This document shows positions 611-40,487 of a DNA stretch of 64,000 nucleotides, in pieces (within the stretch, counting starts at the first letter, position 1; every line of letters begins with the position of its first letter). The stretch is from a virus. The notes beneath the pieces are model-generated. The model had not been told where the DNA came from, did no database searches, and was given only the letters and a program-made list of their open reading frames with translations. A program made the translations under genes and the position numbers. The stretch is taken from the IMG/VR virus record IMGVR_UViG_3300021420_000001, positions 47,481 to 111,480 of that record; one strand, given 5' to 3'.

Positions 611-1201
611 CTAGAAGTTGACGCGGACGCCAGCCCCACTATGGGGCCAAGGCAATTTGTAGTGGAACGCAAGCACACCAGGAGCGTCAGCCTTGAACGG
701 GTCGCCCCAAGTTTCCTGGGTTGGGGTACACACCGACTTGCCATTGTCCTCGATCACAAAGTCAAGGGGTAAATTGTGTCCTTGCGAATAGACAACGCAC
801 TCAGTGAACATCCCAGTAGCGGAAGTCATGTCCCCAACGAAGCACCAGACCCGATTCTTGCCGCCCGCTCGTTTGATGGACCAGGCAATCCCAAGAGCAA
901 TCGGCAAAATGCCTCCGACAATTGCGGAGGATATTATGCGACGTTCAGGATAACAAAGCGTAATAGACTTTCCCGCGAGGATGTCTCGCTTAAGTATTTC
1001 AGGCGGGACGCCGTGCAGTAAACATTTGTAGTGACTTCTCCAGGAGCAACAAACCCAATCGTCCGGGTAGACCTGTTTGAAGATTTTGATGAGTTGTTCT
1101 TCATTCCCCCCATCCAAATGTATTGGGGCTCTAATATGCCCCGCATTGAATTCGGCAGCGATGTCTTTTTCGAACGCGATGAGCTCTTCAGCGGAAAGCA
1201 T
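611..1201 (-). CDS. TPP-dependent enzyme, diphosphate-binding (E1 alpha-like) subunit
   Basis: 196 residues of the E1 alpha/PP-domain type. The thiamine-diphosphate motif is visible as GDM at 123-125 followed about 30 residues later by EDN (151-153), with the conserved ATGMFTE helix between. Upstream SHYKCLLHG (56-64) matches the E1 alpha segment contacting the cofactor. It is much shorter than E1 alpha of pyruvate dehydrogenase (about 330 residues). Transcribed immediately before the pyrimidine-domain subunit, in an island of glycosyltransferases, methyltransferases and an oxygenase, which suggests synthesis of an unusual sugar or glycan substituent. The exact reaction cannot be read from the sequence. 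Confidence 0.78.
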   Translation of the reverse strand: MLSAEELIAFEKDIAAEFNAGHIRAPIHLDGGNEEQLIKIFKQVYPDDWVCCSWRSHYKCLLHGVPPEILKRDILAGKSITLCYPERRIISSAIVGGILPIALGIAWSIKRAGGKNRVWCFVGDMTSATGMFTECVVYSQGHNLPLDFVIEDNGKSVCTPTQETWGDPFKADAPGVLAFHYKLPWPHSGAGVRVNF

Positions 1202-1364
1202 AAACCACCAATCCAGTAATAACCGACAAAACCAAACCCCAGATAAAACCCGTTCTAAGTCCCTCTATGTAACCCGATAGCCTAGCCGTAGAACGTAGAT
1301 TACAAGGACAATGTTCCCAATTTGGATAAGGGCAACGACCGCCAACAACGCATTCTTTCTGCAT
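1188..1364 (-). CDS. Small Cys-rich, single-TM hypothetical protein
   Basis: A 58-codon frame starting at an ATG directly abutting the preceding stop codon and ending 14 bases inside the next gene. The N-terminal third has four cysteines (C5, C11, C19, C21); the C-terminal third is a plausible membrane helix (about residues 38-56: TGFIWGLVLSVITGLVV). The junctions fit the coupled style of the operon. Another frame here also encodes a hydrophobic stretch but has only TTG starts. No function assigned. Confidence 0.45.
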   Translation of the reverse strand: MQKECVVGGRCPYPNWEHCPCNLRSTARLSGYIEGLRTGFIWGLVLSVITGLVVYAFR

Positions 1365-1694
1365 TCAATTCAACTTATCGAATTTGACGACCGTCGGCTT
1401 CGGCTTATTCTCAGGATCAGACTTGAAAAGCCAAGTCGTATAAGCATCCAGGTCTTCGCGGGTCAGAAAGAATTCCCATTGACCATCAAAACTTCCGTCC
1501 CCGTTAATCTCCGTAAGCATATCCGCAACGTCAAAAGCCATCAGTGCGGGCGGAAGGTTCTCAGCCTTGAGTTCGTCACTCCGATCGATCTTGATCAAAA
1601 GTATACCGGGTTCGAGGAACTCTACGATCTCACCCCACTGGCTGTACTCGTTACCGCAATGAAAAACAAACTTGCCGACGAAGCTGTTGTTCAT
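1365..1694 (-). CDS. Hypothetical protein, 109 aa
   Basis: The start is taken at the ATG at 1694 because it overlaps the preceding TGA as ATGA; upstream in-frame codons would extend into the previous gene. The product begins MNNSFVGKFVFHCGN and is acidic, with no transmembrane segment, signal peptide or recognised catalytic motif. It sits between a helical conserved protein and the TPP enzyme genes, so it may serve the glycan island, but this is context only. Confidence 0.65.
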   Translation of the reverse strand: MNNSFVGKFVFHCGNEYSQWGEIVEFLEPGILLIKIDRSDELKAENLPPALMAFDVADMLTEINGDGSFDGQWEFFLTREDLDAYTTWLFKSDPENKPKPTVVKFDKLN

Positions 1695-2245
1695 GAAAAT
1701 ACATTCCAATTGCCAAAGTCCTCGACAAGTTCTGCTGCAAAACAATCTACTTTGTAGTCTTTGCGCCCACCCGCTTCCTCGGCAAGGATATTCTTTGCCG
1801 AATTCCTGACGCCATTGATGCTATGCGTCAATTTGAGAAGCTTGTCCTGCTCGGGACCACCTTCCCGCGCGTGCGCCTCATTCTCCCAAATATATCGATT
1901 CGTAAGTTGTATTAATGTGATCGCCATAATCGCACGGGCAGTCAACTTGTGGTCAAGCTCATTTAGGATGATGTCAATGTCATGAAGGATATCCGCGCGC
2001 TCTTGCAGATAGTGATCACGTTGTTTCGGGATGAACACCATTTTCTGTTGTGTGATCGTCAAGCGGTCGACCAAATCACTTAATGTCGGAAGATACCGGC
2101 GCTGCGGGATCTGATTTGGAATAGAAACTACTGCAGCCGCTTGACGTGGTCGCTGGGATGGAAGGTCTCGTGTTTGGAATCCCGGAATTCCGGTCGTCAC
2201 ATCCTCAGGCACGTCGGCTCCAAATTCATCCACGATTGACCCCAC
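1691..2245 (-). CDS. Conserved helical protein of glycan-gene clusters
   Basis: About 184 residues from a GTG at 2245 that overlaps the upstream TAG by one base; a longer GTG start at 2269 is possible. The central part reads as amphipathic helices: LPTLSDLVDRLTITQQK, then HDIDIILNEL, then LTNRYIWENEAHAREGG. This order resembles small helical proteins found beside glycosyltransferases in phage and polysaccharide clusters, with some similarity to DUF4254-type sequences, but the match is by eye only. No catalytic motif is obvious. It directly follows the first GT-B-like gene. Confidence 0.6.
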   Translation of the reverse strand: MGSIVDEFGADVPEDVTTGIPGFQTRDLPSQRPRQAAAVVSIPNQIPQRRYLPTLSDLVDRLTITQQKMVFIPKQRDHYLQERADILHDIDIILNELDHKLTARAIMAITLIQLTNRYIWENEAHAREGGPEQDKLLKLTHSINGVRNSAKNILAEEAGGRKDYKVDCFAAELVEDFGNWNVFS

Positions 2246-20589: not shown

Positions 20590-21687
20590 TTATACGCCCA
20601 AGAGGCCTGCGACTGCGGCGGGAACCTTAATTATCGCGCCCCAGGTACCACCAGTGACCTTCTGACGATAGGACGAAATCTCACGAATGATAGGGTGCGC
20701 ACGCATCTTTTCGTTGAAGGCGCAGTAGCCGGTCGTCTGACCTTCAAGTGCGGGTGCGAACAACTGGACGAAGTTGCCGGCTGCGATGCCTTGTGGGTTG
20801 GACGCAGTCGTGACCGCGTACTGGATCGCCGTCTTGATCTCGATCTTCGGGAAGTTCTTCTTCAACAGGTCATGCACGTTGACGTTGAAGGTATTGGTCG
20901 CGGTCAAGGCGACTTCCGACTGCGGGGACATCGCCAGGATCAACTTGTCCTCGGCAGAGACCAGACCGTTGGTCTGTTGGACCAGCTGAAAAAAGAGCGA
21001 CTGAATGTCGGTGAAGACCTCGTTCGCTGTGGCCTGGACCACACCGCCAGAAATCCACTTCGTACCGCCGTACGCCTTGGAAGCCGGTGAGATGGAAGCC
21101 GGCAGCGCCGGATCATTCAGCAGGCCGTAATTCTGAAGTCCACCCACACCAAAGAAGTAGGTGAAGTTCAGGAACTTGCCCATGACGGTCGCAGCGGCCT
21201 GATCCTTCTCGGACACCCAGTTGAGCTTGGCGAGGCCCATACGTGCCAGTTCGAGTTCACCGTACTCCTTGACGCCCTGGAACAGATAGGCCTGACGGTT
21301 CGGAAAGTCGGTGTTGACGCCGATCTCACCGTTGCCGGAGTAGTCGCCATAGCTGGAGACTTCACCCGTATGCTCGACGACCGGGAAGATTCTGGTCTGG
21401 TCGAGCCAGGTGCCGGCTCTCCGTTCCCCGAAGATTTCCGCCGCCTTGTTGGGCGTAAAGAGAATACGCACGACTTCCGGATCGATGGAGGTCGTAAGCA
21501 GCGCCGGAATACCGGCATTGGGATCGGTCGTCAGCGTCGGCTGGGCGTCCATTGCGAGGCCCCAATTGTGGCGCCACTCATCCGGGAGATACTGCCGGAC
21601 TTCTGCTCCAGGCTCGAACGAGATGCCTCGAGCCTCAAGGTGAGGACGGTCAGCCCGCCACTGCGTGATGGCTTCTTGCAAATTCAT
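20590..21687 (-). CDS. Major capsid protein, DUF2184-like
   Basis: 365 residues. TWLDQTRIFPVVEHTGEVSS, VQGVKEYGELELARMGLAKL-like central strands, GGLQNYGLLNDPALPA (about 180-195) and AHPIIREISSYRQKVTGGTW near the end match the DUF2184 capsid family, which adopts the HK97 fold. A good AGGAG ribosome site lies 10 bases before the ATG. It is preceded by protease, scaffold and cement genes in the classical order. Expected to form the icosahedral shell after proteolytic maturation. Confidence 0.82.
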   Translation of the reverse strand: MNLQEAITQWRADRPHLEARGISFEPGAEVRQYLPDEWRHNWGLAMDAQPTLTTDPNAGIPALLTTSIDPEVVRILFTPNKAAEIFGERRAGTWLDQTRIFPVVEHTGEVSSYGDYSGNGEIGVNTDFPNRQAYLFQGVKEYGELELARMGLAKLNWVSEKDQAAATVMGKFLNFTYFFGVGGLQNYGLLNDPALPASISPASKAYGGTKWISGGVVQATANEVFTDIQSLFFQLVQQTNGLVSAEDKLILAMSPQSEVALTATNTFNVNVHDLLKKNFPKIEIKTAIQYAVTTASNPQGIAAGNFVQLFAPALEGQTTGYCAFNEKMRAHPIIREISSYRQKVTGGTWGAIIKVPAAVAGLLGV

Positions 21688-21770: not shown

Positions 21771-22862
21771 TTAGCCGAGATGCTCAGAGCTCATTTTCAC
21801 AAGCTCACCGACGAGGCCGTTGCTCATGGCCTGCCACTTGGTTTCGATCGAACCCAGGAAGAGCATCGTCTGGACAGCAGCCTCAGTCTGGGAAGGATAG
21901 ACGTAGTAGGTTCCCGTACCACCCGTGCCGGTGCCGAGTGCAGTGATATACGTTCCCGCAGCCGCACCGGTGCCGCTAATCGTTGCCCCAACACCCAGCG
22001 TACCAGAGACCAGGGTTGCGGCCGTCAGCAACCCGGCCGATCCGTTGATCGTAGCGGACGTATACGTCTGCTCCGGGATGTTGAGGGTATAGATACCAAC
22101 CTGACCCGTAGAGCCAGAAAGCTGGCCGGTGATAGTCGTGCCGGTCGCGATGGTCCCACCGCCCGTACCGGTCAGCGTGGTACCGGGGGTCAAAGTGCCA
22201 GAGGCCAGCGCCGTGACCGTCAGGATGTTGCCGGCGATCGAAGCCGTGATGGTCGAAAGTGCGGGGGCAATCGAGCCCGTGATGTTGGCGGACTGTATCG
22301 GGTTGCCGGAATTCGCGAAGTAGATGGAACCGTCCGCGAAGTTGGCGTAGGCCTTCTGACCAATCTGTGCCGTCGTCGTACCGCGGTTTTTAGCCCAGAA
22401 GTCGCCCCCGGTGGCCACGGTGATCGGAAAGCCTTGCGGGACCACAAGCGTGGCATCGGACAGGAACACCGTAATGAGCGCTTGCTGCTCGCGGTGGATG
22501 AAGCCTACCACCATCTGCGAGCTGGATCCCGGACCAGGGAACGTACCGCCACCCGCGATGAGCTGAGCACCAGTGAAGGACGTACTGACCTGAGTCGGCG
22601 TACCATCAGAATCGACAACTCCCGAGTACCAAGCGAAGCGGCCAACGGTTGCTCCATTGGGACCGGTCACAAGCCCGCCTGGGCCTACGTTGACGAAGTT
22701 ACGGGTGCCGGAGTTGAAGGAGCAAAAATCACCTTCGACCCCAGGCGCAGGCTGCACATTGACCTGACCCTGGAAGCCCGTGATAAAGCAGTACCGGAAA
22801 AGTTCCGGGTCGCGAATTGCCGTCTGGCCCAAAAGCCAGTTCTTACGGATGTCTCCGTTCAT
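21771..22862 (-). CDS. Head decoration/cement-like structural protein
   Basis: 363 residues from the ATG at 22862, which has GAGGAG upstream; the longer frame lacks one. The N-terminal half ([53 protein letters not shown]) resembles phage structural cement proteins found next to DUF2184 capsid genes. Residues about 205-345 are a low-complexity Thr/Gly/Ser insertion ([19 protein letters not shown] and similar), the kind of strand repeat seen in surface-exposed domains. Probably binds the outside of the capsid. Confidence 0.65.
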
Positions 22863-23028
22863 GGGGAGAACTCCTCTGTTAGAGAGAATTTCGGGTTGCG
22901 GGAGCCCCACGACCTAGGAGACGACCCTAGGACGGCCAGAGAGCGGCTGGATTGGGTGGGGAGGGGAAAAGGTAGGGGAAGGCCGAAGGACGCGCCAGCG
23001 GCCGTTTCTGCGGGTTCTAGCGGGATTC

Positions 23029-24189
23029 CTAGGCGAATCCGATCTTCGCGGCGTCCGGATACCGCTTATTGAAGTCCGAAACCGAGGACGAATCCATCCC
23101 CAGGCTATCATCCTGGGCCTGCTGGCGTTGCTTACCGGGCTGGGGAATACGCTCCAAGATGACTTTGAAGGCCGAAGGATGTACGCCCTTCGTATCCACG
23201 CCAAGCGCCGTCAGGGCCGTCTTGTAAACACCCTCGGCAGAGTCATGGGCCATGGCGAGGTCACCAACCCAGGGCCGCACGAAGCGTTCGGCATCGCGGG
23301 TTGCCTTGGTGGCTTCCCGCATATCGGCGATCTTCTTGTCGGCGCTATCGTTCGCCACCTTGACGGCACGCGCGATAGCCGCGTGCACCTGATCTCCAGA
23401 CATCTTGCCTCCTACTTCCGGCTTGCCTTTGAACGGCGGAGGCTCATCCTTCGCCTTCTTGTCCTTCGCCTTGGCGAACTTGGCCCCATCCTCCTCATCG
23501 ACCTCGTCCTCACCTTCCTCGGCGGCCTTCTCGGAGCCGAGTTTGGACTTGGGGACGCCCTCAGGCTCGTTCTCCTGATCTTCGCCTTCCTCGGCCTTGG
23601 GGCCGAAACCGGCGGCGTCGACGGCGCCCGCGATATCATCCTCGGACATGCCCTTACTGGACAGATAGCCCTTCAGCTTCTCGCCGGGATCCTCATCCAT
23701 GGTCTCGTCTTCGTCCTCCTCCGACATCTCTGCCTTCATCGGCATGCCGGAATTGGGGTCAGTTTCGAGAGCATCAGCGTCACCATGCTCCAGGGACTCG
23801 ACCTTCTCCAGGCCGTCCAGGAGTTCGACGAGACCATCAACGGAAGCGTCCTTGGCGAGCCTGCCCTTGGTCTGCTCCTTGATGCCGGCGACGATAGCAC
23901 CCTTCTTGCTGGCAAAGTTCTTGTGCGTCACGCTACCGAGGATTTTACCCCAGTCAAGCGGTTTGGCATCCTTCGCCATCTTCGGCTTCAGCCAGGTCAT
24001 CAGAGCCCCCTGAGCCGTAGCAGCCTTACGAGTCAAAATTCTCTTCGTGCTCATGTTGAGCTCCTTCTGGTTTAATTTACTATCGCCGACTACGGCGGAT
24101 TTCAACAAAGATGCATCCAGCCCGAGAGCTTCAACAGCAGCCTCAGGCGTCTTATACTTTCTCTTCAATGCCTCAGTCAATTTTGACAT
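23029..24189 (-). CDS. Scaffold-like head assembly protein
   Basis: 386 residues, strongly helical and charged, with an acidic middle (MSEEDEDETMDEDPGEKL; EDEVDEEDGAKF) and a conserved C-terminal segment ending SVSDFNKRYPDAAKIGFA. This composition between the DUF2213 protease and the capsid gene is typical of scaffolds removed during head maturation; in relatives the scaffold can be fused to DUF2213. About 165 bases without a clear gene separate it from the cement gene. Confidence 0.65.
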   Translation of the reverse strand: MSKLTEALKRKYKTPEAAVEALGLDASLLKSAVVGDSKLNQKELNMSTKRILTRKAATAQGALMTWLKPKMAKDAKPLDWGKILGSVTHKNFASKKGAIVAGIKEQTKGRLAKDASVDGLVELLDGLEKVESLEHGDADALETDPNSGMPMKAEMSEEDEDETMDEDPGEKLKGYLSSKGMSEDDIAGAVDAAGFGPKAEEGEDQENEPEGVPKSKLGSEKAAEEGEDEVDEEDGAKFAKAKDKKAKDEPPPFKGKPEVGGKMSGDQVHAAIARAVKVANDSADKKIADMREATKATRDAERFVRPWVGDLAMAHDSAEGVYKTALTALGVDTKGVHPSAFKVILERIPQPGKQRQQAQDDSLGMDSSSVSDFNKRYPDAAKIGFA

Positions 24190-24198
24190 TTGAAATCC

Positions 24199-26631
24199 TC
24201 AAACTCGGGCAACCTTCATCGAGTCATCCATGCCGAGCTTTCGGACGGCATCCTCGATTGCAGCCCAACGGAGTTCTTCCGGAACCTTATCACCAATCCT
24301 AACGTCAGTACCAGCGCGACCCTCTTGGCAAACAGCAAGATGATTTGCGATGATGTCCACCATCTTCCCATCGTAAGGTACGCCCTTATACTCGCCCGGC
24401 TCCATTAGGGCCTTGTATCTGTAACCACAGCTCAGTTCGCGTTTCTCCCCCGACTTGATTGCGTCAATATCGTCCTGAGACCAAATGACCAATGAATTAC
24501 GCAAATAAGGATCATCAAACTCTGCATCTGTACCCGTAGCACCAATCACTTCATCTGGTTGATGATCATCCGCCGAAACTGGGATGTGCTCACGTAGAAC
24601 CGGGATGCCGTTGAAGGTGGGGGCGGCTTTAGCGAGTTCGTCCGGGTCGCGCAGGAGTTGATACACCTTGTCAGGGTCCAATTTGAGCGTACCGTCCTCG
24701 TCCGGTATCTCTTTGCCCAAGTACGGGCAAACGTTGGCCTTACTAATATTCGCAACAGTTACATGCAATCGACCATCAGCATCGTACTCACGCACGGACT
24801 TATCGAGGGCAAGTACCAGCTTATCGTCAGAGGCCCGAATGCTTCTATCTAGCGCGGCCCACTTGGCTTCGTCCTGTACCACCTTAGTATCTTCAGCACC
24901 ACTTTCCTTCAATACATCTACGCCATCAATCTTTGCAGACCAAATCTTGTCGGCCCCATCTCCATCGAAATTTGACTTGAACGGGTTCTCGTCCTCCTCG
25001 ACGACTACATTTCGAGAAGACCCTTGCGCCCCCAACCGCCAGATAGAACGTAGAAACCCAGCCATGTTGAAATCGCCATCGTACTCGATCTCAACCTTAT
25101 GCTCAGGTTCCTGCTTACTGTCCATCGTGACTTCAAGATCACCATGGTGGTGCGGAATAGGCTTGACGTCAGCATCCTTGGGTGGATTGCGTGGCGTCAG
25201 CTTCTCGATCCTGGACTCTTGACCACGGAACCAGGCGCAGAGCGCATCCCAATCAATGCCTTGTTCCTTACAATATTGTCGTTCGCTGGGCGTTCCAGCG
25301 GCATTGTGGGACTGAAGATAGATTTGCTTCTTTTCTTCGGTCTTGGGCTTACGTCCATGCTCTTCTTCGAACTTCTCAATGCGCGTTCGAATCTCGTCCA
25401 GTTCCGGTACTTCATGATGGACTAGGTCTTCGACAACATCGACAATCTTGCCATTGATCTCTACAGTCTCCGGCAGGTTGCGATTGACGTACATGGTCTC
25501 GCCGTCTTTCGACATGCAAGAGACCCAAGGACCATCATGAGTGTGGTCAATCTTTACGGCGTAGGTATTCTTGGGCGTGAAAAGCTTGCACCAACCGTTC
25601 GGATCGATAGGGTCCTCAACGAGTTGGCAGTGCGAAATACCACCTTCCTTGAAATCGTATTTGCAGATCGAGCAGTGAGACTCTGGCTTGCCGTTGCCGT
25701 AATCGACTTCTTGTTGAGAGAGCTTGGCGTCATAGGCTTCACAATCTTTGGCCTGCTTCGCCGCCTTTTTAGCTTCTCGATACGCAACGGCTTCAGCATT
25801 TTGGCGCTTAGTAAGATTGAATTCCTGCAAATCGTAAGGATAAACAGCGATAACTTTTCCAGACGAATCAACAACCTCGTACTTTCCAGGGGAAAATTTA
25901 ACAGTTGCGGCATCCTCCGCATGCTCGTCTTCCTGTTCCTCCTCGGACAGGAACTTCATCAGCCCGTCTTTGAGTCCAGCCCAATCCTCAGGCGTCATAT
26001 CTTCACCCGCCTCGGAACCAAGTTTGGTCTTAAGCGTCTTGGCTACAGCGGGATGAAGAGGTTGCGGCAACTGGTCCAAACTCGACCAGCAAAACCCACT
26101 ATGCTCACCGTTCAGCTTAGGGACGAACTTGGCCGCTACAGGCTGAGCAAACGTATGGAACGCCATTCCTGTCGGAGTCGTAACCTTGTCCAGCAGCTTT
26201 TTCTCGCCGCTGGGCTTGCCGCCAATTTCCTCACGTGACTCGCGGTCAGCGGCTTGTTCTGGGGTCTCACCCTCCTCGGCATTACCACCAGGGAGCGCCC
26301 AATGGCCCGCGTAGTTCTCTTCCTGGGAACCACGACGGAGAAGTAGGACCTCGCCATCAGGTGCGACAAATAGTATACCAGCGGCAATACCACCCTCGTT
26401 AGATTCTTCGTCCTTACCCTGTGCAGCACGACGCTTTGCCTCAAGCCGCGTCTTCTTCTCCCACTCTTTCCATTTACGCTCGCCCTCAGTTTCTGGCAAG
26501 TCGTAACGCCCCTTCATCTGCTCGCGAGACTTAAGCGCCTCGCTCTCATCTTTACGATAGCCCTTGTAAGGTTGCTTCTCGCGCTTGGGGGCGTCTTCAG
26601 CGAGACTCTTGGGTACATAGCGTTCTACCAC
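24199..26631 (-). CDS. Multidomain Nudix / Cys4 / HHE / DUF2213 prohead-protease fusion
   Basis: 810 residues from a GTG with AAGGAGG upstream. Residues about 80-205 are a Nudix domain whose box at 115-137 fits GX5EX7REUXEEXG (GGNAEEGETPEQAADRESRE). Residues 320-351 hold C320, C323, C335 and C348 in a HiPIP-like CSICKYDF...GWCKLF arrangement. About 395-480 is a domain with VEDLVHHEVPE, possibly a metal site. About 575-785 is DUF2213, the head-maturation protease: GEKRELSCGYRY with S734 and IIANHLAVCQEGRAGTDV with H764. Such proteases cleave scaffold and capsid during maturation; the role of the added domains is unknown. The N-terminus MVERYVPK echoes the portal N-terminus MVARYIPK. Confidence 0.75.
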   Translation of the reverse strand: MVERYVPKSLAEDAPKREKQPYKGYRKDESEALKSREQMKGRYDLPETEGERKWKEWEKKTRLEAKRRAAQGKDEESNEGGIAAGILFVAPDGEVLLLRRGSQEENYAGHWALPGGNAEEGETPEQAADRESREEIGGKPSGEKKLLDKVTTPTGMAFHTFAQPVAAKFVPKLNGEHSGFCWSSLDQLPQPLHPAVAKTLKTKLGSEAGEDMTPEDWAGLKDGLMKFLSEEEQEDEHAEDAATVKFSPGKYEVVDSSGKVIAVYPYDLQEFNLTKRQNAEAVAYREAKKAAKQAKDCEAYDAKLSQQEVDYGNGKPESHCSICKYDFKEGGISHCQLVEDPIDPNGWCKLFTPKNTYAVKIDHTHDGPWVSCMSKDGETMYVNRNLPETVEINGKIVDVVEDLVHHEVPELDEIRTRIEKFEEEHGRKPKTEEKKQIYLQSHNAAGTPSERQYCKEQGIDWDALCAWFRGQESRIEKLTPRNPPKDADVKPIPHHHGDLEVTMDSKQEPEHKVEIEYDGDFNMAGFLRSIWRLGAQGSSRNVVVEEDENPFKSNFDGDGADKIWSAKIDGVDVLKESGAEDTKVVQDEAKWAALDRSIRASDDKLVLALDKSVREYDADGRLHVTVANISKANVCPYLGKEIPDEDGTLKLDPDKVYQLLRDPDELAKAAPTFNGIPVLREHIPVSADDHQPDEVIGATGTDAEFDDPYLRNSLVIWSQDDIDAIKSGEKRELSCGYRYKALMEPGEYKGVPYDGKMVDIIANHLAVCQEGRAGTDVRIGDKVPEELRWAAIEDAVRKLGMDDSMKVARV

Positions 26632-26648
26632 AAGAGCCTCCTTAGATG

Positions 26649-26745: not shown

Positions 26746-27555
26746 TTAGAACAGGATCTTGCCGAAGACTTCGTACTTGCGGCCAGAGGTCAGACTCCCG
26801 AAGACCGGAGCACCAGCGCCAAAGCCGGTGATACCTACGCCCTTGTCCGCGAAGACAACCTGAGCACCGACATCCAGAACACCGCCCGTGAGCTTGCCAG
26901 TCGTATCGACGATCTGGTTCATGACGCCAGCGCCCACGAGCGCGGCAATACCAACGCCATTACTACTGGCGCCAGCAAATCCCGCATTGAAACCCCACTC
27001 TTCGATTCCGGCCATCAGGTAAGGATGGCCGTTAGGAAGAATGGTAATGCCCGGAATGGTGGGCGCCGTCGGCAGGGTCGGGAAACCCCCAAAACCAAGA
27101 TTGCCGATCAGCGCCAGCGGGTTGAAGCCGTAGACCTTTACGACCTGGTCGGCACTCCATCGGGTAGCGAATGAAGCCGGAGCAACCGTACCATTTGCTC
27201 CAACCGCAGGGGCGGATGCCGTCACATTACTCCAGTAGCCATTGCCCTCGAAGGCGACCGCTTGCGCGCTTCCGGAAGCATTGACGCCCATGCTGCGCAT
27301 ATAGCCGAACGTAAGGCCCAGGCTTCCACCAAGGGCATTCGCATTCCCGGTGGCGAGCGAAGATGCAAGAAAAGTGCCAGAGGCGCTGTCCTGCTCGACG
27401 CCGCCCTTACTGGCAAAGCCCCAGTAAGGACCAGAGCCATTGTACGGGAATGCGAGAAGGTTGGATGCCGGCGCCTTCACTAGCATATCAGCCGCCTGAG
27501 CCGAGGTAGCGATTGCTGCCACAGCCAGGATAGATACAAACAAAGATTTGTACAT
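26746..27555 (-). CDS. Outer-membrane beta-barrel-like protein (moron candidate)
   Basis: 269 residues from ATG 27555, chosen because it begins a classical signal peptide (MYKSLFVSILAVAAIATSAQ-A) with cleavage before ADMLVKAP, the mature start typical of rhizobial Omp25/31-type proteins. The rest is Gly/Ala/Phe-rich beta sequence ending in GRKYEVFGKILF, with phenylalanine as last residue as expected for an outer-membrane barrel. No hydrophobic helix beyond the signal. It sits in the middle of head genes and is flanked on both sides by hairpins, which suggests an acquired host gene. Possible roles are altering the host surface or blocking superinfection. Confidence 0.7.
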   Translation of the reverse strand: MYKSLFVSILAVAAIATSAQAADMLVKAPASNLLAFPYNGSGPYWGFASKGGVEQDSASGTFLASSLATGNANALGGSLGLTFGYMRSMGVNASGSAQAVAFEGNGYWSNVTASAPAVGANGTVAPASFATRWSADQVVKVYGFNPLALIGNLGFGGFPTLPTAPTIPGITILPNGHPYLMAGIEEWGFNAGFAGASSNGVGIAALVGAGVMNQIVDTTGKLTGGVLDVGAQVVFADKGVGITGFGAGAPVFGSLTSGRKYEVFGKILF

Positions 27556-27588
27556 GTTACGATCCCCACTTTGTACAGAGCCTATTGA

Positions 27589-27652
27589 ACAGGGACAGGC
27601 CCCTGTAGTCCCCCCTTCATGACGACTTGGATTCTCTTTTCCCCGAATCCAA
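27589..27652 (-). other. Hairpins in outer-membrane-protein gene leader
   Basis: Two perfect inverted repeats precede the gene: ACAGGG/CCCTGT (27589-27594 with 27601-27606) and TTGGATTC/GAATCCAA (27627-27634 with 27645-27652). The latter could end upstream transcription in part or fold in the leader. No clear promoter was found between them. Confidence 0.5.
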
Positions 27653-27672
27653 ATTCGCCTCACTGAACAATC

Positions 27673-28523: not shown

Positions 28524-28765
28524 TGCAAACCTTTTTCGGGTCTGAAAAGTTCTTCATGGTAGGAAACAAAAGGCTCGTCAATTTCCTTTACTTGAAACAG
28601 ATGACCATCGAACCAATCCCAGATACCACTAATTGTGTAGACCTTACCGCATTCCGGCCAAGGGTATTCAGAAATTGGTGCGGCAATAGAGGCATCAGGG
28701 TGACGCTGATCGCAAACAAGATCGCGTGTTCTGACGCAAACGACCTTTTGCCCAACATACCACAT
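28520..28765 (-). CDS. Conserved hypothetical protein, 81 aa
   Basis: 81 residues, SH3-like in pattern: MWYVGQKVVCVRTRD at the start, GKVYTISGIWDWFDGHLFQV in the middle, FVSYHEELFRP at the end. Similar small proteins are common in alphaproteobacteria and their phages with no known role. Overlaps both neighbours. Confidence 0.6.
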   Translation of the reverse strand: MWYVGQKVVCVRTRDLVCDQRHPDASIAAPISEYPWPECGKVYTISGIWDWFDGHLFQVKEIDEPFVSYHEELFRPEKGLQ

Positions 28766-29832
28766 TACGAGAATCCTGCGACAACCGATCTACTTACGCA
28801 GCGGCAGTTTACCTCAGTGCCGGGGAAGATGTATTTTTTTACAGCTGGGTCCCACCATCCCTTAACAATATCATACGGCTTGCCATTTTGGCGCACATGA
28901 GTCGGTCTTGGATGTTTTCCAGCCCCAGAATGAACCCAGATCGCAGTCGTAATTCCAAGCTCCAATTGCCGCGCTCTGGTAATATTTGCAGTAATCTTGT
29001 TCGATTGATCCCGACTAATCAACTCAGCCCTTTTACGAGTGGTGTGAAATTGCCTCTGCAAATCAGTCGTCAGCTGGTGCAGGTCACGCCCCGTCTGCAC
29101 GGATCGCATGACCATACCCTCGATCTGGGTAAAGTATTGGGATGGGATGCTTTTGATGAGGCTGACGTTCTCTTGGATCGATGCGGCCAAGATGTCACGC
29201 TGCGCCTTTGTCATCTGCATCTCGACAGTCCAGCCCCCCTTCTTGAGGATTGACTGCAACTGTTTCGTAGAACGCTGATGGACCTTGAGTGAGAACCATT
29301 TGGCAAGATCAAGAGAGGCTTCGTTAAAGCCTTTCTGCCATCTACGAGAGAGTTTGCGGATTGCTCTACGTAGTTCGATAGCGGGTAGGGCGTCTTGCGC
29401 TAAAGTAGCATTAAGCCGATCGCGCTCTTTCTCAGCTTCACGATAATTACTGCGAGTTGCTACAATCTTACGATCTTTCATTATCCGCCAGTAATGGGCA
29501 ACCAACTCAATGTAATACTTTGACTGAGCATCCTGCGCTAAGGCCGTGACCTCGGGCTCGTTCGCCTTAAATGCCGCCTTGAGCCAATATACCACCGACT
29601 TTTGCATATCATCGATTAGGCACTCAAGCTTGCGACGATATTCGATCTCTAATGCAAAGCTTGGATGCACAGGACGTAAGACGCGGTCTTTTTTAGGCTT
29701 TGCGTCGATCGCGATACGATGTTGCAGAGAACGGAGCTTTTGGTCTTGCGCCTGGATGATCTGCTGGGCTTGTTCCAGCTGCTTACGCAGAACTTGATTG
29801 TCAATTTTGGACTTAGCGGAAACGGGAAGCAT
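28765..29832 (-). CDS. Head morphogenesis protein, Mu F-like
   Basis: 355 residues. The N-terminal 230 are long charged helices; the C-terminal 120 hold the Phage_Mu_F domain: RKRAELISRDQSNKITA, TAIWVHSGAGKHPRPTHV and YIFPGTEVNCRCVSRSVV, with the PG..NCRC motif diagnostic of the family. Mu F-type proteins are minor capsid components near the portal, needed for head assembly. Its position between portal and capsid genes agrees. Confidence 0.82.
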   Translation of the reverse strand: MLPVSAKSKIDNQVLRKQLEQAQQIIQAQDQKLRSLQHRIAIDAKPKKDRVLRPVHPSFALEIEYRRKLECLIDDMQKSVVYWLKAAFKANEPEVTALAQDAQSKYYIELVAHYWRIMKDRKIVATRSNYREAEKERDRLNATLAQDALPAIELRRAIRKLSRRWQKGFNEASLDLAKWFSLKVHQRSTKQLQSILKKGGWTVEMQMTKAQRDILAASIQENVSLIKSIPSQYFTQIEGMVMRSVQTGRDLHQLTTDLQRQFHTTRKRAELISRDQSNKITANITRARQLELGITTAIWVHSGAGKHPRPTHVRQNGKPYDIVKGWWDPAVKKYIFPGTEVNCRCVSRSVVAGFS

Positions 29833-29835
29833 ATA

Positions 29836-30786
29836 TCAATCGTAAATATTAGGAGCGGCTTTACCAGTCAATTCTCGGTAAGTTTTCGCCCAACGCTCGT
29901 AGGCATCCTTTGTATTTTGCCCATAACTACCGTAACGATTTTCACCTTGTTTGAAAGTGTTGCGCAATCTTGACATAGCTCCCAAAGCTTCTTGAACACG
30001 CTTTTGATCAGCAGGCCCAGCAACATCTTTACCTTTCTTTGGGGGCTTGTTCCCATACTTTGTATTTGTCAAATCATCGGTGGGACCAGAGCCTGGCGCT
30101 CTAGTATCAGTTGGTCTTGCATTCCTGCTAGCAGGCTTCCCCTGAGCCGCTTTTGCGGCAGCCGTCAAAGGCTCAGGCTTGGTATACACCACGTTAGCCT
30201 TCTCGATGTCCATGCCCTCAAACATACCATCCATCGCATATTCGATATAGTCCAAAGCCTCCTGCTTCACCCCAAACATGCGCGGACCGCCAGGACCATT
30301 AGCGAACCAGCGACCAGAGTCCAGCGCCATACCTTCCAACAAGACGAAGTCACCAATCCGGTCTACGATCTGCGCTTGACAGTCTGGCAATGAATCACAG
30401 GCGAACCGGAGGGGCATTTGATCTTTTGCTCCTACGGTGAGAAGACCACGAGAGGCATCCATCGCTTCCTCCTCGTCTCCCCGTGCCTTAATCGGCCCGC
30501 TCACCTGACCATGAGCAACAACTCCTTCCGACTTGTAACCAGGGTTTTCCTTCTCTGCTGTGTTTACCGCCTCTTGTCTAGAAGAGGCTCTGAGACGAAC
30601 TCCACGTCGACGCCCACCTTCTCCCACTAGATTGACTTGCCACTCCATATCTGCGTCCTCAGCCTCATCCCCGCGTGCCTTACTATACGCAATTGCCGCT
30701 GCCTGCTTCGGGTCCTTGCCGGCGTTGATCTCAGTGCCGATATTGCTACTGATGGTCTCTTTGCTGGAACCTGATTTCAGCGGCAT
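29836..30786 (-). CDS. Head-module protein with TRAPGSGP module, 316 aa
   Basis: 316 residues. The N-terminal MPLKSGSSKETISSNIGTEI...AAAIAYSKARGDE segment is a recurring phage N-terminal motif of unknown role. Near residue 230 there is a linker (RPTDTRAPGSGPTDDLTNTK) repeated almost exactly in the gene at 33266. The C-terminal 60 residues are basic and helical. No enzyme motif. Located between portal and Mu F genes; likely an assembly factor or minor head protein. Confidence 0.6.
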   Translation of the reverse strand: MPLKSGSSKETISSNIGTEINAGKDPKQAAAIAYSKARGDEAEDADMEWQVNLVGEGGRRRGVRLRASSRQEAVNTAEKENPGYKSEGVVAHGQVSGPIKARGDEEEAMDASRGLLTVGAKDQMPLRFACDSLPDCQAQIVDRIGDFVLLEGMALDSGRWFANGPGGPRMFGVKQEALDYIEYAMDGMFEGMDIEKANVVYTKPEPLTAAAKAAQGKPASRNARPTDTRAPGSGPTDDLTNTKYGNKPPKKGKDVAGPADQKRVQEALGAMSRLRNTFKQGENRYGSYGQNTKDAYERWAKTYRELTGKAAPNIYD

Positions 30787-31218: not shown

Positions 31219-31487
31219 ATCGCGCCGCCACCTTCAAACCTGTATGGAAAGCCTAGCCGATTCCGAAGCCACGTCCAATTCCATATGGGCTGAGACGTGC
31301 CGCCTATTTTGCGGTCGCCTAAGAGCGGCCACGCTACCCCCCAATTTTGCAAAGCAAATTGCCACAGCATCCAGCCTCGGTAGCCGCGTGGCCTATGCGC
31401 GTCGATGAATGGACGCCATGACTTTACGAACGGCGCTAGACCAAACTTGTGGCCCCATAACCATTCGACAAAAGTCAGCGCACTCAT
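31215..31487 (-). CDS. Trp-rich hypothetical protein, 90 aa
   Basis: 90 residues with eleven tryptophans (MSALTFVEWLWGHKFGLAPF; GYRGWMLWQFALQNWGVAW). Not clearly membrane-spanning. Coupled to the portal gene by an ATGA overlap. Function unknown. Confidence 0.55.
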   Translation of the reverse strand: MSALTFVEWLWGHKFGLAPFVKSWRPFIDAHRPRGYRGWMLWQFALQNWGVAWPLLGDRKIGGTSQPIWNWTWLRNRLGFPYRFEGGGAM

Positions 31488-33265
31488 TCCGCAGCCTCGC
31501 TTGGCAAAAGCTTCTTCAGCTTAGTCATACGCTCAGCCCGCTCGGGATGGGGCTTAGGCTGGCTGTGCATCAACCTTACCAGCTTACCCGTCCGGGCCGT
31601 GCGATGGCTCATATCGGGTTCGGACCCATCTAGATCGGGTTCTAAGCCCCCTAGAGCGTCTTCGGACCCATCCTCAGGATTTTCCCCCTCATCCCGTTCG
31701 GACGCGCCTGCGACCGTTTCTGCGGGTTCCTCGCCCTCTCCTAGCTCGGCCTTGACCCCACCACCGCCACCCTTGGGTATGAGGCCGGCTTCGATCTCGC
31801 CCTTGAGGTCAGGCATCGTAGTCTTATCCAAGCCCTGGTAGGGCGATTCGGCATCATCGGCGAGACGGATACGGACCTCTTCCTGACTGATGACACCCAT
31901 ATCAACGTAGATCTGATCGGTACGGGCCTGGACCTCGCCGACCTCAGAATGTTCTTTCTCATCCATAGACCAGAGCGGCTCGAAGGCGAACGTAATGGCA
32001 GGATCAACTTGGCCCCAGAGGTCTAGCATCGTGAAATGCATCAGACGTGTCAGGTTCTTACGAAGAAAGGTTTCCTGCCGATCATGGATGGTGTCGTAGA
32101 ATGCCCTGATCTCGCCTTCGGAGCTCGCATTCAGTCCCGTCGGCTGCAAACCCGTGAACTTGACAGCCGGGATGCGCGCTACCGACATCATGTGTTCTTG
32201 GGCTTGGGCCTGTAAGGCATCGAGCGTACCAAGAGGCGCAACAGTATTTGTGAACTCCTCGGTGTCCTTGTCGGTCAACATGATGCCGCGATTGTCGCGG
32301 AACCGATTGAAGAGTTCTGCTCGCTTGAAGAGTAGGTCACCACCCTCCATCAGGGACTCAGCTAAGTTTGTCTTCAAACCCCAAACGACGAAGGCGTGGA
32401 TCAGGTCATTGACGGATTGCCGGGTTATCAGCCAGTTATCTACGTAGGGCTTCATGATCTGACTGAGTGACAGACCACCAAAGCTATACGCAGGCTTCAG
32501 GATGTCGGGAACTTCACGTCCTACGAAAGTAAGGAAGCGGGAAACATGCAACTCTTTACCCATTACGAACCAGTGTTGGGGGTTGTACCAATCTGGTGCC
32601 AAAGGATCATTGGAGTTGTAATTGGTCGGGTAGGCCCAGATGGCCTCTACGGTCGTAAGACGTTTCAGTGATCCACGCTTGACCTTGGCCCGACTGATCT
32701 TGTTCTGACCATCACCAATCGGCATGCGGAGTTCGTTAGCATCATCCTTGGAACCAAAATCCAGATGTAGATGGGATCGACCGAAGTAACCATCCTGCTC
32801 GATCAGAGTACGGCAACGATCCTGGACTTCGAGTTCCTTCCACTTGTCCTCGAGTTCCTTGATCTCCTTACCCTTGTCTGCCTTACCGACAGCTTCGAAC
32901 TTGATCCATTTACGGCACATCTCACCGGCTATTGTTTCGACCGGGATGCGATATTCAGGTCTCTGAGCGAGCTGCGCGAGATAAGGATAGCCTAGGAACT
33001 GTAGGCCTTCATGGAACGATTGCCCAATAACAGATGAAGCCCAAGAGAAATCGCTATTGAAGCCGGAGTTGTCATCCATCGCCATCTTTGCGGCTTTGAC
33101 AGCGCGCATGAGGCGGGGCGGATGGGCCGGGAACTGGAAAGTCTGGACGGATTGTGATGCATTACGTGACGGACCGGCTCTGGCTATGGCCTGATCGTAG
33201 GCAAAGCTCAAGTCCTGACGAGTGGGCTTAGCCTTCTTGCGCTTAGGGATGTAACGGGCGACCAT
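31484..33265 (-). CDS. Portal protein, DUF1073-like
   Basis: 593 residues. The DUF1073 portal pattern is visible as YPYLAQLAQRPEYRIPVETI, KLEDKW-like helices, the HVSRFLTFVGREVPDIL segment, QSVNDLIHAFVVWGLKTNL and RIPAVKFTGLQPTGLNASSE (about 345-365). The C-terminal 110 residues are low-complexity and acidic, then basic. Portals form the dodecameric ring through which DNA enters and leaves. Order TerL, small genes, portal, Mu F, protease, capsid is standard. Confidence 0.82.
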   Translation of the reverse strand: MVARYIPKRKKAKPTRQDLSFAYDQAIARAGPSRNASQSVQTFQFPAHPPRLMRAVKAAKMAMDDNSGFNSDFSWASSVIGQSFHEGLQFLGYPYLAQLAQRPEYRIPVETIAGEMCRKWIKFEAVGKADKGKEIKELEDKWKELEVQDRCRTLIEQDGYFGRSHLHLDFGSKDDANELRMPIGDGQNKISRAKVKRGSLKRLTTVEAIWAYPTNYNSNDPLAPDWYNPQHWFVMGKELHVSRFLTFVGREVPDILKPAYSFGGLSLSQIMKPYVDNWLITRQSVNDLIHAFVVWGLKTNLAESLMEGGDLLFKRAELFNRFRDNRGIMLTDKDTEEFTNTVAPLGTLDALQAQAQEHMMSVARIPAVKFTGLQPTGLNASSEGEIRAFYDTIHDRQETFLRKNLTRLMHFTMLDLWGQVDPAITFAFEPLWSMDEKEHSEVGEVQARTDQIYVDMGVISQEEVRIRLADDAESPYQGLDKTTMPDLKGEIEAGLIPKGGGGGVKAELGEGEEPAETVAGASERDEGENPEDGSEDALGGLEPDLDGSEPDMSHRTARTGKLVRLMHSQPKPHPERAERMTKLKKLLPSEAAE

Positions 33266-33730
33266 TTAACGTTGCCAAGAAGACCCAGTTGCTTCCCAAG
33301 GACCATATTTCTTGTGCTCAGGGTCTGCGTTAACCTGATTTTCAACTTGTTTACGAATTCCGTTTTCCTGCGCAGTACTTCGTGGCCCTGACGTTCGCAT
33401 TGAAACTGTTAAACGCTTTCCATCTTTTGCTTTAAGCGAAATTTGCAAACTATGTTCTTCAGCATCTGTTGAAGGCTTCGGCTTTGGAGGAGGTTTACCT
33501 TGCCCATACTTCGTATTTGTCAAATCCTCGATAGGCCCAGAACCAGGGGCTCTAGTATCTAGAGGTCTTGCATCCAACGCTATTCCCTTAACCTCACTCC
33601 GCGCAATCCCCACATCCATTGCCATCCGGCCCGCGTAAGCGACGGCTTCCTGCTGCGTCACGAACTGAATAGAGCGCGAGCCACCATGCTTGAATTCGAG
33701 ATCGACGGTGAACCAATTATCATCACTCAT
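33266..33730 (-). CDS. Hypothetical head-module protein, 154 aa
   Basis: The N-terminal 50 residues form a small mixed domain (WFTVDLEFKHGGSRSIQFV; QEAVAYAGRMAMD). Then comes the linker RPLDTRAPGSGPIEDLTNTK shared with the 316-residue protein at 29836, then a second beta-like domain (HSLQISLKAKDGKRLTVSM). The shared linker suggests module exchange between two proteins of the same complex. Directly upstream of the portal gene. Confidence 0.6.
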   Translation of the reverse strand: MSDDNWFTVDLEFKHGGSRSIQFVTQQEAVAYAGRMAMDVGIARSEVKGIALDARPLDTRAPGSGPIEDLTNTKYGQGKPPPKPKPSTDAEEHSLQISLKAKDGKRLTVSMRTSGPRSTAQENGIRKQVENQVNADPEHKKYGPWEATGSSWQR

Positions 33731-39256: not shown

Positions 39257-39751
39257 TTAGGCGGCTTCCAAAAGATCTGTACTCAATAACGTGGGGGTCA
39301 TACGTCCAAGGAAACTCAGGAGGACGCGTTCCCTTTGTTTCGCATCCTGTCCCTGGTAGATCCCCGTATATCCTGAGAAGACCCCGCCCTTGACCCGGAT
39401 CTCTTGACCTTCCTTGAATCTATTAGCCTGGTCGAGTTCGGGTAGGGCAACGAAACCATTGACTTCTCTTTGTTTCAATTTGATGATTTCGCCATCGGGA
39501 ATGGTCGCGGGGGTATCCAGGAAAGTGACCACAGTCGAAATGCCGAACGTATTGAGAAGAAAATGCCAATTGGAAGGGAGAGTGTGGACAAAAAGGTAGT
39601 TGGCAAATAAGGGTTGGGCGACGATATGCTTTTTACGCGTGGTCAATGTCTTTGGTAAGTAGAAGTCATGCCCTTGACGGTGAACGTTTTCCGCCGCCCA
39701 TTCCTCGCGTTGGGGTTTCGTCCGCGCTACGATCCAACTCATGCCCTTCAT
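39257..39751 (-). CDS. NusG/RfaH-like transcription elongation factor
   Basis: 164 residues. The N-terminal NGN-like domain has MSWIVARTKPQREEWAAENV, the RfaH-type YLPK (residues about 31-34) and QPLFANYLFVHTL. The C-terminal KOW has FKEGQEIRVKGGVFSGYTGI and a RVLLSFLG strand. This is the domain order of NusG/RfaH proteins, which bind RNA polymerase and suppress pausing or termination. Start at 39751 or the in-frame ATG at 39742. It probably lets polymerase read through the long leftward operons, as specialised NusG paralogues do in capsule operons. Confidence 0.8.
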   Translation of the reverse strand: MKGMSWIVARTKPQREEWAAENVHRQGHDFYLPKTLTTRKKHIVAQPLFANYLFVHTLPSNWHFLLNTFGISTVVTFLDTPATIPDGEIIKLKQREVNGFVALPELDQANRFKEGQEIRVKGGVFSGYTGIYQGQDAKQRERVLLSFLGRMTPTLLSTDLLEAA

Positions 39752-40403
39752 GGGTTTGATGTTTTAATGTAGTCGGAGGAACTTTGCAAGAGGTAAGTTT
39801 GTTGTGGGTCAGGTAAGTCGCTAGATTCCTTGAAGCGTTATATACTAATTCCATTACGTCCTGGAATTGCTTTGACTGATATGGGAAGAAAGCGGGGTCC
39901 GGAATTTTGGGAACAGGAGGACTGACAAATTCCCCTAGACAGAATACGTGGCGATCTTTAAGATGACCGCAGGCCTTCTCTTCCAGTCTACGTTTATTGC
40001 CCTTGTCCATGTAAATAATTACGTCAGCCCAGATCAGATCATTGGTTGTCAGACAAACGCTACGATGTTCGGAAAGGTCCAGTCCGATTTTCTTCCTAGC
40101 GTATTCTCTTACCGGCTTGGCTGCTGGCTTATTATCGTCATCCCGGAATCCTCGCGATCGGATATGTAGCTTTGTATTGAACTTTTGCACGATAGCGTGA
40201 CACAGAGGGCTACGATAACGATTTCCATGACACAGAATCAAAACATTCATTTGCGACCCACTCTCTTGCCCAAGACCATTCAGCCTGTCGGCCGCACGCT
40301 TCGCAGCATTACGGCTGGGATAAGCCGCGACAAAGTGCTTCTCTCCGGACGAATAGCGCCAAGCGACCGCCCATTGTTTGTTTCTATAGTAGACGATATA
40401 CAT
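39666..40403 (-). CDS. LMW protein-tyrosine-phosphatase-like protein with N-terminal extension
   Basis: 245 residues from ATG 40403. Residues about 52-180 carry the low-molecular-weight phosphatase signature: NVLILCHGNRYRSPLCHAIV holds CX5RS, and VPKIPDPAFF the DP acid loop. The first 50 residues (MYIVYYRNKQWAVAW; AAYPSRNAAKRAADRLNG) look like a separate small domain. ATG 40250 would give the phosphatase alone. The C-terminal 28 residues overlap the NusG-like gene by 86 bases and are low-complexity, so the true end may be a later decay. May dephosphorylate a host capsule tyrosine kinase. Confidence 0.65.
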   Translation of the reverse strand: MYIVYYRNKQWAVAWRYSSGEKHFVAAYPSRNAAKRAADRLNGLGQESGSQMNVLILCHGNRYRSPLCHAIVQKFNTKLHIRSRGFRDDDNKPAAKPVREYARKKIGLDLSEHRSVCLTTNDLIWADVIIYMDKGNKRRLEEKACGHLKDRHVFCLGEFVSPPVPKIPDPAFFPYQSKQFQDVMELVYNASRNLATYLTHNKLTSCKVPPTTLKHQTHEGHELDRSADETPTRGMGGGKRSPSRA

Positions 40404-40487
40404 CGCCGCCTCTTCGCTTAGCATCGGTCCCGCCTATCGGCTACGCGGCATTTATCCGGCTCCCGACACGGCGCGCCCCCACCTACG

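Follow-up and report, generated by a model that had tools for sequence, protein, structure and literature searches.

The window analysed here, a stretch of 64,000 nucleotides that forms part of a virus record of 111,480 bases, carries on its minus strand (24199-26631) an open reading frame of 810 residues in which a Nudix domain, a HiPIP-like four-cysteine module, an HExxE domain and an unnamed small module stand in this order before a DUF2213 protease. Its start codon is GTG, with AAGGAGG five bases upstream, at about 26637-26643. A sequence-only reading had described a single fused protein at this place, which is borne out by this start, by the Pfam matches to NUDIX and DUF2213, and by a protein from another sample (locus L023) where the order is repeated. 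A search of genome contigs with the whole protein gave nothing beyond a remote Nudix.

The gene lies in a head module, all of whose members named here are on the minus strand. The next gene downstream encodes a separate scaffold of 386 residues, rich in A-x-D[ASD] (23029-24189; phrog_2229 positions 267-425, E 6e-24), whereas in 31/50 relatives the scaffold is part of the same open reading frame as the protease. Farther downstream are a minor head or decoration-like protein (21771-22910; Pfam XM1_gp53, E 2.3e-11) and the major capsid protein (20590-21687; phrog_264, E 8.5e-61), in which residues 45-48 (21544-21555) read AMD↓A, the arrow marking the candidate cut. Upstream of the gene are a MuF-like head morphogenesis protein recognized by Pfam, with three A-x-D-A motifs (28765-29832), and the portal protein (31484-33265; Pfam Phage_portal_3, E 2.7e-71), with AMDD in its N-terminal region. 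The portal and the polyprotein have similar starts (MVARYIPK and VVERYVPK, respectively; MERYKPK in L023), and from this resemblance the common start is perhaps a shared head-targeting peptide.

Several other genes of the region are worth recording. A protein of 305 residues with a signal-peptide-like segment (26746-27663, minus strand), encoded between the protease gene and the MuF cluster, is odd for a head module, and no Pfam or PHROG family was found for it. The proteins encoded at 29836-30786 and 33266-33730 (minus strand) have the stretch TRAPGSGP.(D/E)DLTNTKYG... in common; the first contains four A-x-D-[AS] motifs and may be a processed head protein. At 39257-39751 and 39666-40424 (minus strand), a NusG-like protein (Pfam E 1.6e-12) adjoins a low-molecular-weight phosphotyrosine phosphatase domain (E 3.6e-14). 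Also, among related loci, an intein interrupts the MuF-like head proteins of L001 (175-1968, plus strand), L002, L025 and L055 (653-2254), the Pfam Intein_splicing match being under the cut-off in L001 (E 5.6e-6) and 9.7e-12 in L055. Across the intein of L001, the opposite strand holds an open reading frame of 365 residues with a weak HTH match (976-2073, minus strand).

Domains of the polyprotein and their relatives

The Nudix domain spans residues 82-202 (26026-26388, minus strand; Pfam NUDIX, PF00293, residues 82-199, E 3.2e-19). Its Nudix box at residues 116-138 (26218-26286, minus strand), GNAEEGETPEQAADRESREEIG, is complete, as the sequence-only reading held, and agrees with GX5EX7REUXEEXG, Ser taking the place of U. 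The catalytic Arg and Glu of the box are invariant in 36/36 fusions, and dN/dS is 0.05-0.06 in pairs whose dS shows the least saturation. Taken together, this conservation suggests that the Nudix enzyme of the fusions is probably kept catalytically active. Compared with subfamily models, the window domain gave many weak matches and none above its cut-off, so that a cap or NAD substrate would be a guess. Other fusions join a Nudix to the portal (Bcep1) or to MuF (L129), and Bm1 has a stand-alone Nudix gene beside its head genes, a few genes before the protease.

The four-cysteine module follows at residues 312-352 (25576-25698, minus strand), with related modules in L023, L055, L106 and L168. 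Its cysteines are spaced C-x2-C-x11-C-x12-C, the last one in GWC, which gives the pattern CxxC...C...GWC. The stretch matches PioC with E 0.02 and an NCBIfam iron oxidase model with E 3.8e-6 (27 bits against a cut-off of 100). The Pfam HiPIP family (PF01355) has no match in the window protein and reaches 13.6 bits in L023, under the cut-off of 22. The motif proposed earlier is present, and its resemblance to HiPIP-type proteins is weak but repeated.

Residues 353-500 (25132-25575, minus strand) form the HExxE domain, supported by alignment, an AF2 model and a BFVD match. It had been proposed as an 'HHE' domain; the conserved domain is there, but its signature is wider, with H-E-x-x-E present in 10/10 aligned sequences together with an invariant His93 and Glu101 (model numbering). 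The AF2 model of residues 350-500 has a pLDDT of 86.6. Its best viral structure match in BFVD is a protein named as bearing polyvalent domains (E 1.8e-10, TM 0.73, 29% identity), and a Foldseek search against the PDB gave nothing under E 1. With VIA, the best nine entries all have a metallopeptidase fold, the similarity being weak (selecase, Z 5.9 over 89 residues at 3.2 Å). A zincin metallopeptidase was considered and not called, as the HExxH motif is absent. The domain stands alone in Mesorhizobium plasmid proteins and in viral contigs; with the HiPIP-like and HExxE region as query, cultured phages gave no matches, and plasmids gave two Mesorhizobium proteins carrying the HExxE domain and nothing more.

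Between this domain and the protease, the sequence-only reading overlooked a conserved small module (EHxLxIxYDGDF...GASR...DGDGADKI) at about residues 512-588 (24868-25098, minus strand), which is common to L023, L036 and L047. A search with this GWDGDGADKI module returned no matches.

The DUF2213 domain occupies residues 608-782 (24286-24810, minus strand), supported by Pfam, PHROG, an AlphaFold model and alignment. Its earlier identification as a prohead protease agrees with Pfam (PF09979, residues 614-782, E 4.2e-47, 160.7 bits against a cut-off of 22) and with the PHROG profile for head maturation protease (phrog_2229, E 7e-84). His682, Ser734 and His764 (positions 83, 135 and 165 of the segment starting at residue 600) are invariant in 26 sequences, an invariant Ser and two His being as expected for the Ser-His-His triad of herpesvirus-type proteases. 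Moreover, the AlphaFold model of the domain (pLDDT 88.9) finds the EBV and KSHV proteases with Foldseek (E 3e-4 to 5e-4), and with VIA-align its best match is T4 gp21 (Z 10.2, 130 residues, 3.0 Å), with herpesvirus proteases at Z 6-8.5. The model thus supports a serine protease with the fold of T4 gp21 and the herpesvirus proteases.

Profile scans with Nudix and with DUF2213 show that the fusion is recurrent. After removal of redundancy, 50 proteins have a Nudix before DUF2213 within one open reading frame, 31 of them running on into the scaffold. In a sample of 80 loci drawn by DUF2213 alone, a Nudix lies in the same open reading frame in 18/80. The L023 protein (978 residues) has the Nudix, HiPIP-like, HExxE, GWDGDGADKI and DUF2213 modules in the same order, with 55% identity to the window protein over residues 81-588 and 80% over 575-796. 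Two cultured phages, PdC23 and vB_YenM_29.18, also have the Nudix-DUF2213 combination above the Pfam cut-off, and Shewanella phage vB_Sb_QDWS has the same fusion, with a DUF2213 match under the cut-off. As the window is a contig from a viral metagenome collection, two genes could have been joined by sequencing or assembly, an outcome that the sequence-only reading had itself named as fatal to its proposal; the order in L023, from a different sample, the 50 non-redundant fusions and the two cultured phages refute this, and we regard such an artefact as practically ruled out.

A candidate cleavage motif and a variable slot

A candidate cutting motif was derived from the capsid proteins first, and it was then tested as A-x-D[AS] on 36 fusions against shuffled sequences. 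The capsid proteins of these loci have a common A-M-D-[A/S] near residue 27-72, and A-x-D[ASD] occurs within the first 85 residues in 87/93 of them, against about 14.5 in shuffles; in some, the N-arm contains AMDD. In E217, AMDS is found at residues 62-65 of the capsid protein and at 70-73 of the portal, and the cryo-EM model of the E217 capsid protein begins at residue 66 (PMC10329688). The capsid protein of Pa193 is likewise ordered from residue 66, and residues 1-93 of its portal are unseen in the structure and undetected by LC-MS (PMC11042391).

In the 36 fusions, A-x-D[AS] is enriched 3-4 fold in leaders (11 observed, 2.5-3.0 shuffled), in Nudix-protease linkers (26 against 5.6 expected) and in the C-terminal scaffold part (108 against 25.5). 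No enrichment is seen in the cores of the Nudix (3 against 3.1) and the protease (8 against 5.4). In a larger set, 50 linkers contain 29 motifs against 8.5, the strict A-x-D[AS] being present in 22/50 and the relaxed form in 26/50, and the motif is slightly depleted in the other open reading frames of the loci (65 against 97, 0.7-fold). This distribution suggests that A-x-D[AS] marks likely cutting places, the folded Nudix not being enriched in them; from these sequence comparisons, A-x-D↓[A/S] is the probable cleavage consensus, with the cut after Asp. Since the strict motif occurs in only 22 of these linkers, some fusions may lack a cut that separates the Nudix from the protease.

The window protein has A-x-D[ASD] with P1 at residues 13, 240, 301 and 602, four out of four lying outside the domains (p about 0.01, a post hoc value that depends on boundaries drawn by the authors). 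The candidate sites, all on the minus strand, are AED↓A in the leader (residues 11-14, 26590-26601), where the family shows leader enrichment; AED↓A after the Nudix (residues 238-241, 25909-25920), where it shows linker enrichment; AYD↓A before the four-cysteine module (residues 299-302, 25726-25737); and ASD↓D directly before the protease (residues 600-603, 24823-24834). Weaker look-alikes occur at residues 504 and 802, the first being TMD↓S at residues 502-505 (25117-25128), which is not a strict A-x-D; in L023, the stretch after HExxE contains ALDA and ARDS. The earlier proposal that the maturation protease cuts off the front domains inside the head thus gains support from a cleavage-like motif between the domains and from linker enrichment across the family.

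Two short elements recur near these motifs. The segment DMTPEDW...EEE.E.EHA, at residues 211-235 of the window protein (25927-26001, minus strand), is found near cleavage motifs in relatives; it precedes the Nudix in L131 and occurs without any Nudix in L107 and L133. A linker HPR...GKF is likewise found beside cleavage motifs, with or without a Nudix. Both may serve for docking or as linkers.

Nudix and protease are separated by a median of 34 residues, the gap exceeding 100 residues in 9/50 fusions, where it holds differing modules. An ADP-ribosyltransferase domain accompanies the Nudix upstream in L043 (Pfam E 2e-22) and L054 (5e-16), and in L152 the polyvalent-protein domain LPD3 precedes DUF2213 without a Nudix. 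Judged by these sequence comparisons, the gap is a variable slot, and the modules other than the Nudix would be exchangeable passengers. In L036 and L055, some of the slot looked kinase-like by eye; Pfam gave no support, and no kinase is claimed.

Proposed processing and alternative explanations

We propose from these data that the 810-residue product is a head-module polyprotein of cargo and protease which processes itself, and whose Nudix would be freed in the prohead and is probably carried by the virion; we give this reading a probability of about 0.6. The polyprotein would join the scaffold inside the prohead through its C-terminal DUF2213, a co-assembly suggested by Pa193 gp24 and by the single open reading frames that contain Nudix, protease and scaffold. 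Pa193 gp24 is a DUF2213 relative found in mature virions (PMC11042391), which supports entry of the polyprotein into the prohead. Once activated, the protease would cut after Asp in A-x-D↓[A/S], trim the N-arms of capsid and portal, break up the scaffold and free itself, its own front being cut into the Nudix (about 14-240), a HiPIP-like/HExxE fragment (about 302-504), the small module and the protease. With few motif sites in their cores, Nudix and protease should both survive scaffold breakup. The Nudix would then probably stay in the head and enter the next cell with the DNA, where it may hydrolyse some nucleoside-diphosphate-linked molecule. In SPN3US, freed propeptides mostly exit the head (PMC10052503), so release does not imply retention, and retention of the Nudix in the virion after release is taken here as probable. 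Searches of open-access papers turned up neither biochemical nor proteomic work on a Nudix-DUF2213 protein, nor virion proteomics of PdC23 or Chronis.

That tendency of propeptides to exit heads would also suit an enzyme that acts late in the cytoplasm of the producing cell, in nucleotide housekeeping or RNA decapping, the fusion serving only to tie its expression to the head genes and the share in the prohead being lost after cleavage. Many phages have stand-alone Nudix genes, one of them by the head genes of Bm1. However, a cytoplasmic enzyme would not need fusion to a capsid protein, and the Nudix is repeatedly fused to capsid-bound proteins, namely the protease (50 cases), the portal and MuF, which makes this explanation unlikely. 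Less probable still is a structural function of the front domains within the scaffold core, for spacing, size control or inhibition of the protease until assembly, with enzyme activity being incidental. It is indeed the scaffold/protease to which they are fused, and in T4 the propeptides of head proteins serve in targeting and assembly (discussed in PMC10052503). Against this, most DUF2213 relatives do without a large front domain (more than 100 residues before the protease in just 25/80), unrelated modules fill the slot, and the catalytic residues of the Nudix are invariant.

A further possibility extends the cargo-polyprotein explanation and does not exclude it: on entry, the freed Nudix would destroy immune signals of the ADP-ribose or NAD type or modify RNA ends, and the other modules would be host-specific effectors. 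The pairing of Nudix with ADP-ribosyltransferase in L043 and L054 and the LPD3 of L152 are in line with it, and passages of PMC9503650 argue that phage Nudix enzymes counter ADP-ribose-derived signals. Given that the substrate of the Nudix is not assignable by sequence, we consider this extension rather unlikely as it stands, if more credible than a cytoplasmic enzyme. A broader form of the cargo-polyprotein reading would make the prohead protease a general, swappable cargo carrier, with unrelated enzymes and modules that bind metal held as a cassette at its front, each excised at A-x-D↓[A/S], the folded modules spared, the scaffold broken up, and the virion loaded without a separate packaging signal. 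This generalization is put forward tentatively, at somewhat less than even odds.

Relation to known systems and meaning

The core of the proposal is not new. In its passages on Nudix fusions, PMC9503650 describes fusions of Nudix domains with MuF, with the portal and with a capsid-processing serine peptidase, and predicts packaging and injection of these domains; the type of fusion and the packaging and injection proposal are the same as here. Relative to those passages, where the domains are called T4 NudE-like, the cleavage sites, the slot and the extra modules are added by this analysis; T4 is absent from the 60 tblastn records listed here. In the open-access literature other than bioRxiv preprints, we found neither the cleavage consensus nor the protease slot nor the HExxE and HiPIP-like passengers. 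Open-access searches likewise found no work linking DUF2213 with protease and capsid, Nudix with a capsid maturation protease, or Bcep781 with Nudix and portal; for a Nudix fused to a prohead protease, a single paper came up, the one on polyvalent proteins (PMC5512222).

In phage T4, the internal proteins and Alt are processed by gp21 in the head and injected; these cargo proteins are encoded by separate genes, and the T4 protease cuts after Glu. The likeness lies in cargo handled inside the head by a gp21-type protease, whereas here the cargo is fused to the protease and the cut would be after Asp. Injection of T4 Alt is discussed in PMC5512222, which also treats the polyvalent proteins of phages and conjugative elements. 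Like the window protein, these combine several dissimilar domains within a single polypeptide of the head module, and the HExxE domain is similar to part of a polyvalent-domain protein, with L152 carrying LPD3. In polyvalent proteins the processing is ascribed to zincin-like metallopeptidases, whereas here it is the serine prohead protease that bears the cargo, and Pfam finds no LPD domain in the window protein. The SPN3US prohead protease gp245 has an AXE consensus with Ser preferred at P1' (PMC10052503); it shares an A-x-acidic consensus and Ser at P1' with our candidate, but differs in the acidic residue, and it cuts separate head proteins. Pa193 gp24 and E217 gp23 (PMC11042391) have a homologous DUF2213 without front cargo and are described as a scaffolding protein, with protease unmentioned. 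The MuF polymorphic toxins of temperate phages (PMC5576092) also place exchangeable effector domains on a head protein, the carrier being MuF there and the protease here, where the window MuF is a separate gene.

The proposed consensus predicts exactly which fragments lie in the virions of a widespread phage group that includes cultured Pantoea and Yersinia phages, and the HExxE, HiPIP-like and GWDGDGADKI modules become candidate effectors of early infection. If the proposal is true, it would provide a self-releasing cargo design for the protein loading of capsids, and for the phages themselves it would be a simple way of loading the head with enzymes, by fusion to a protease whose entry into the prohead is required in any case.
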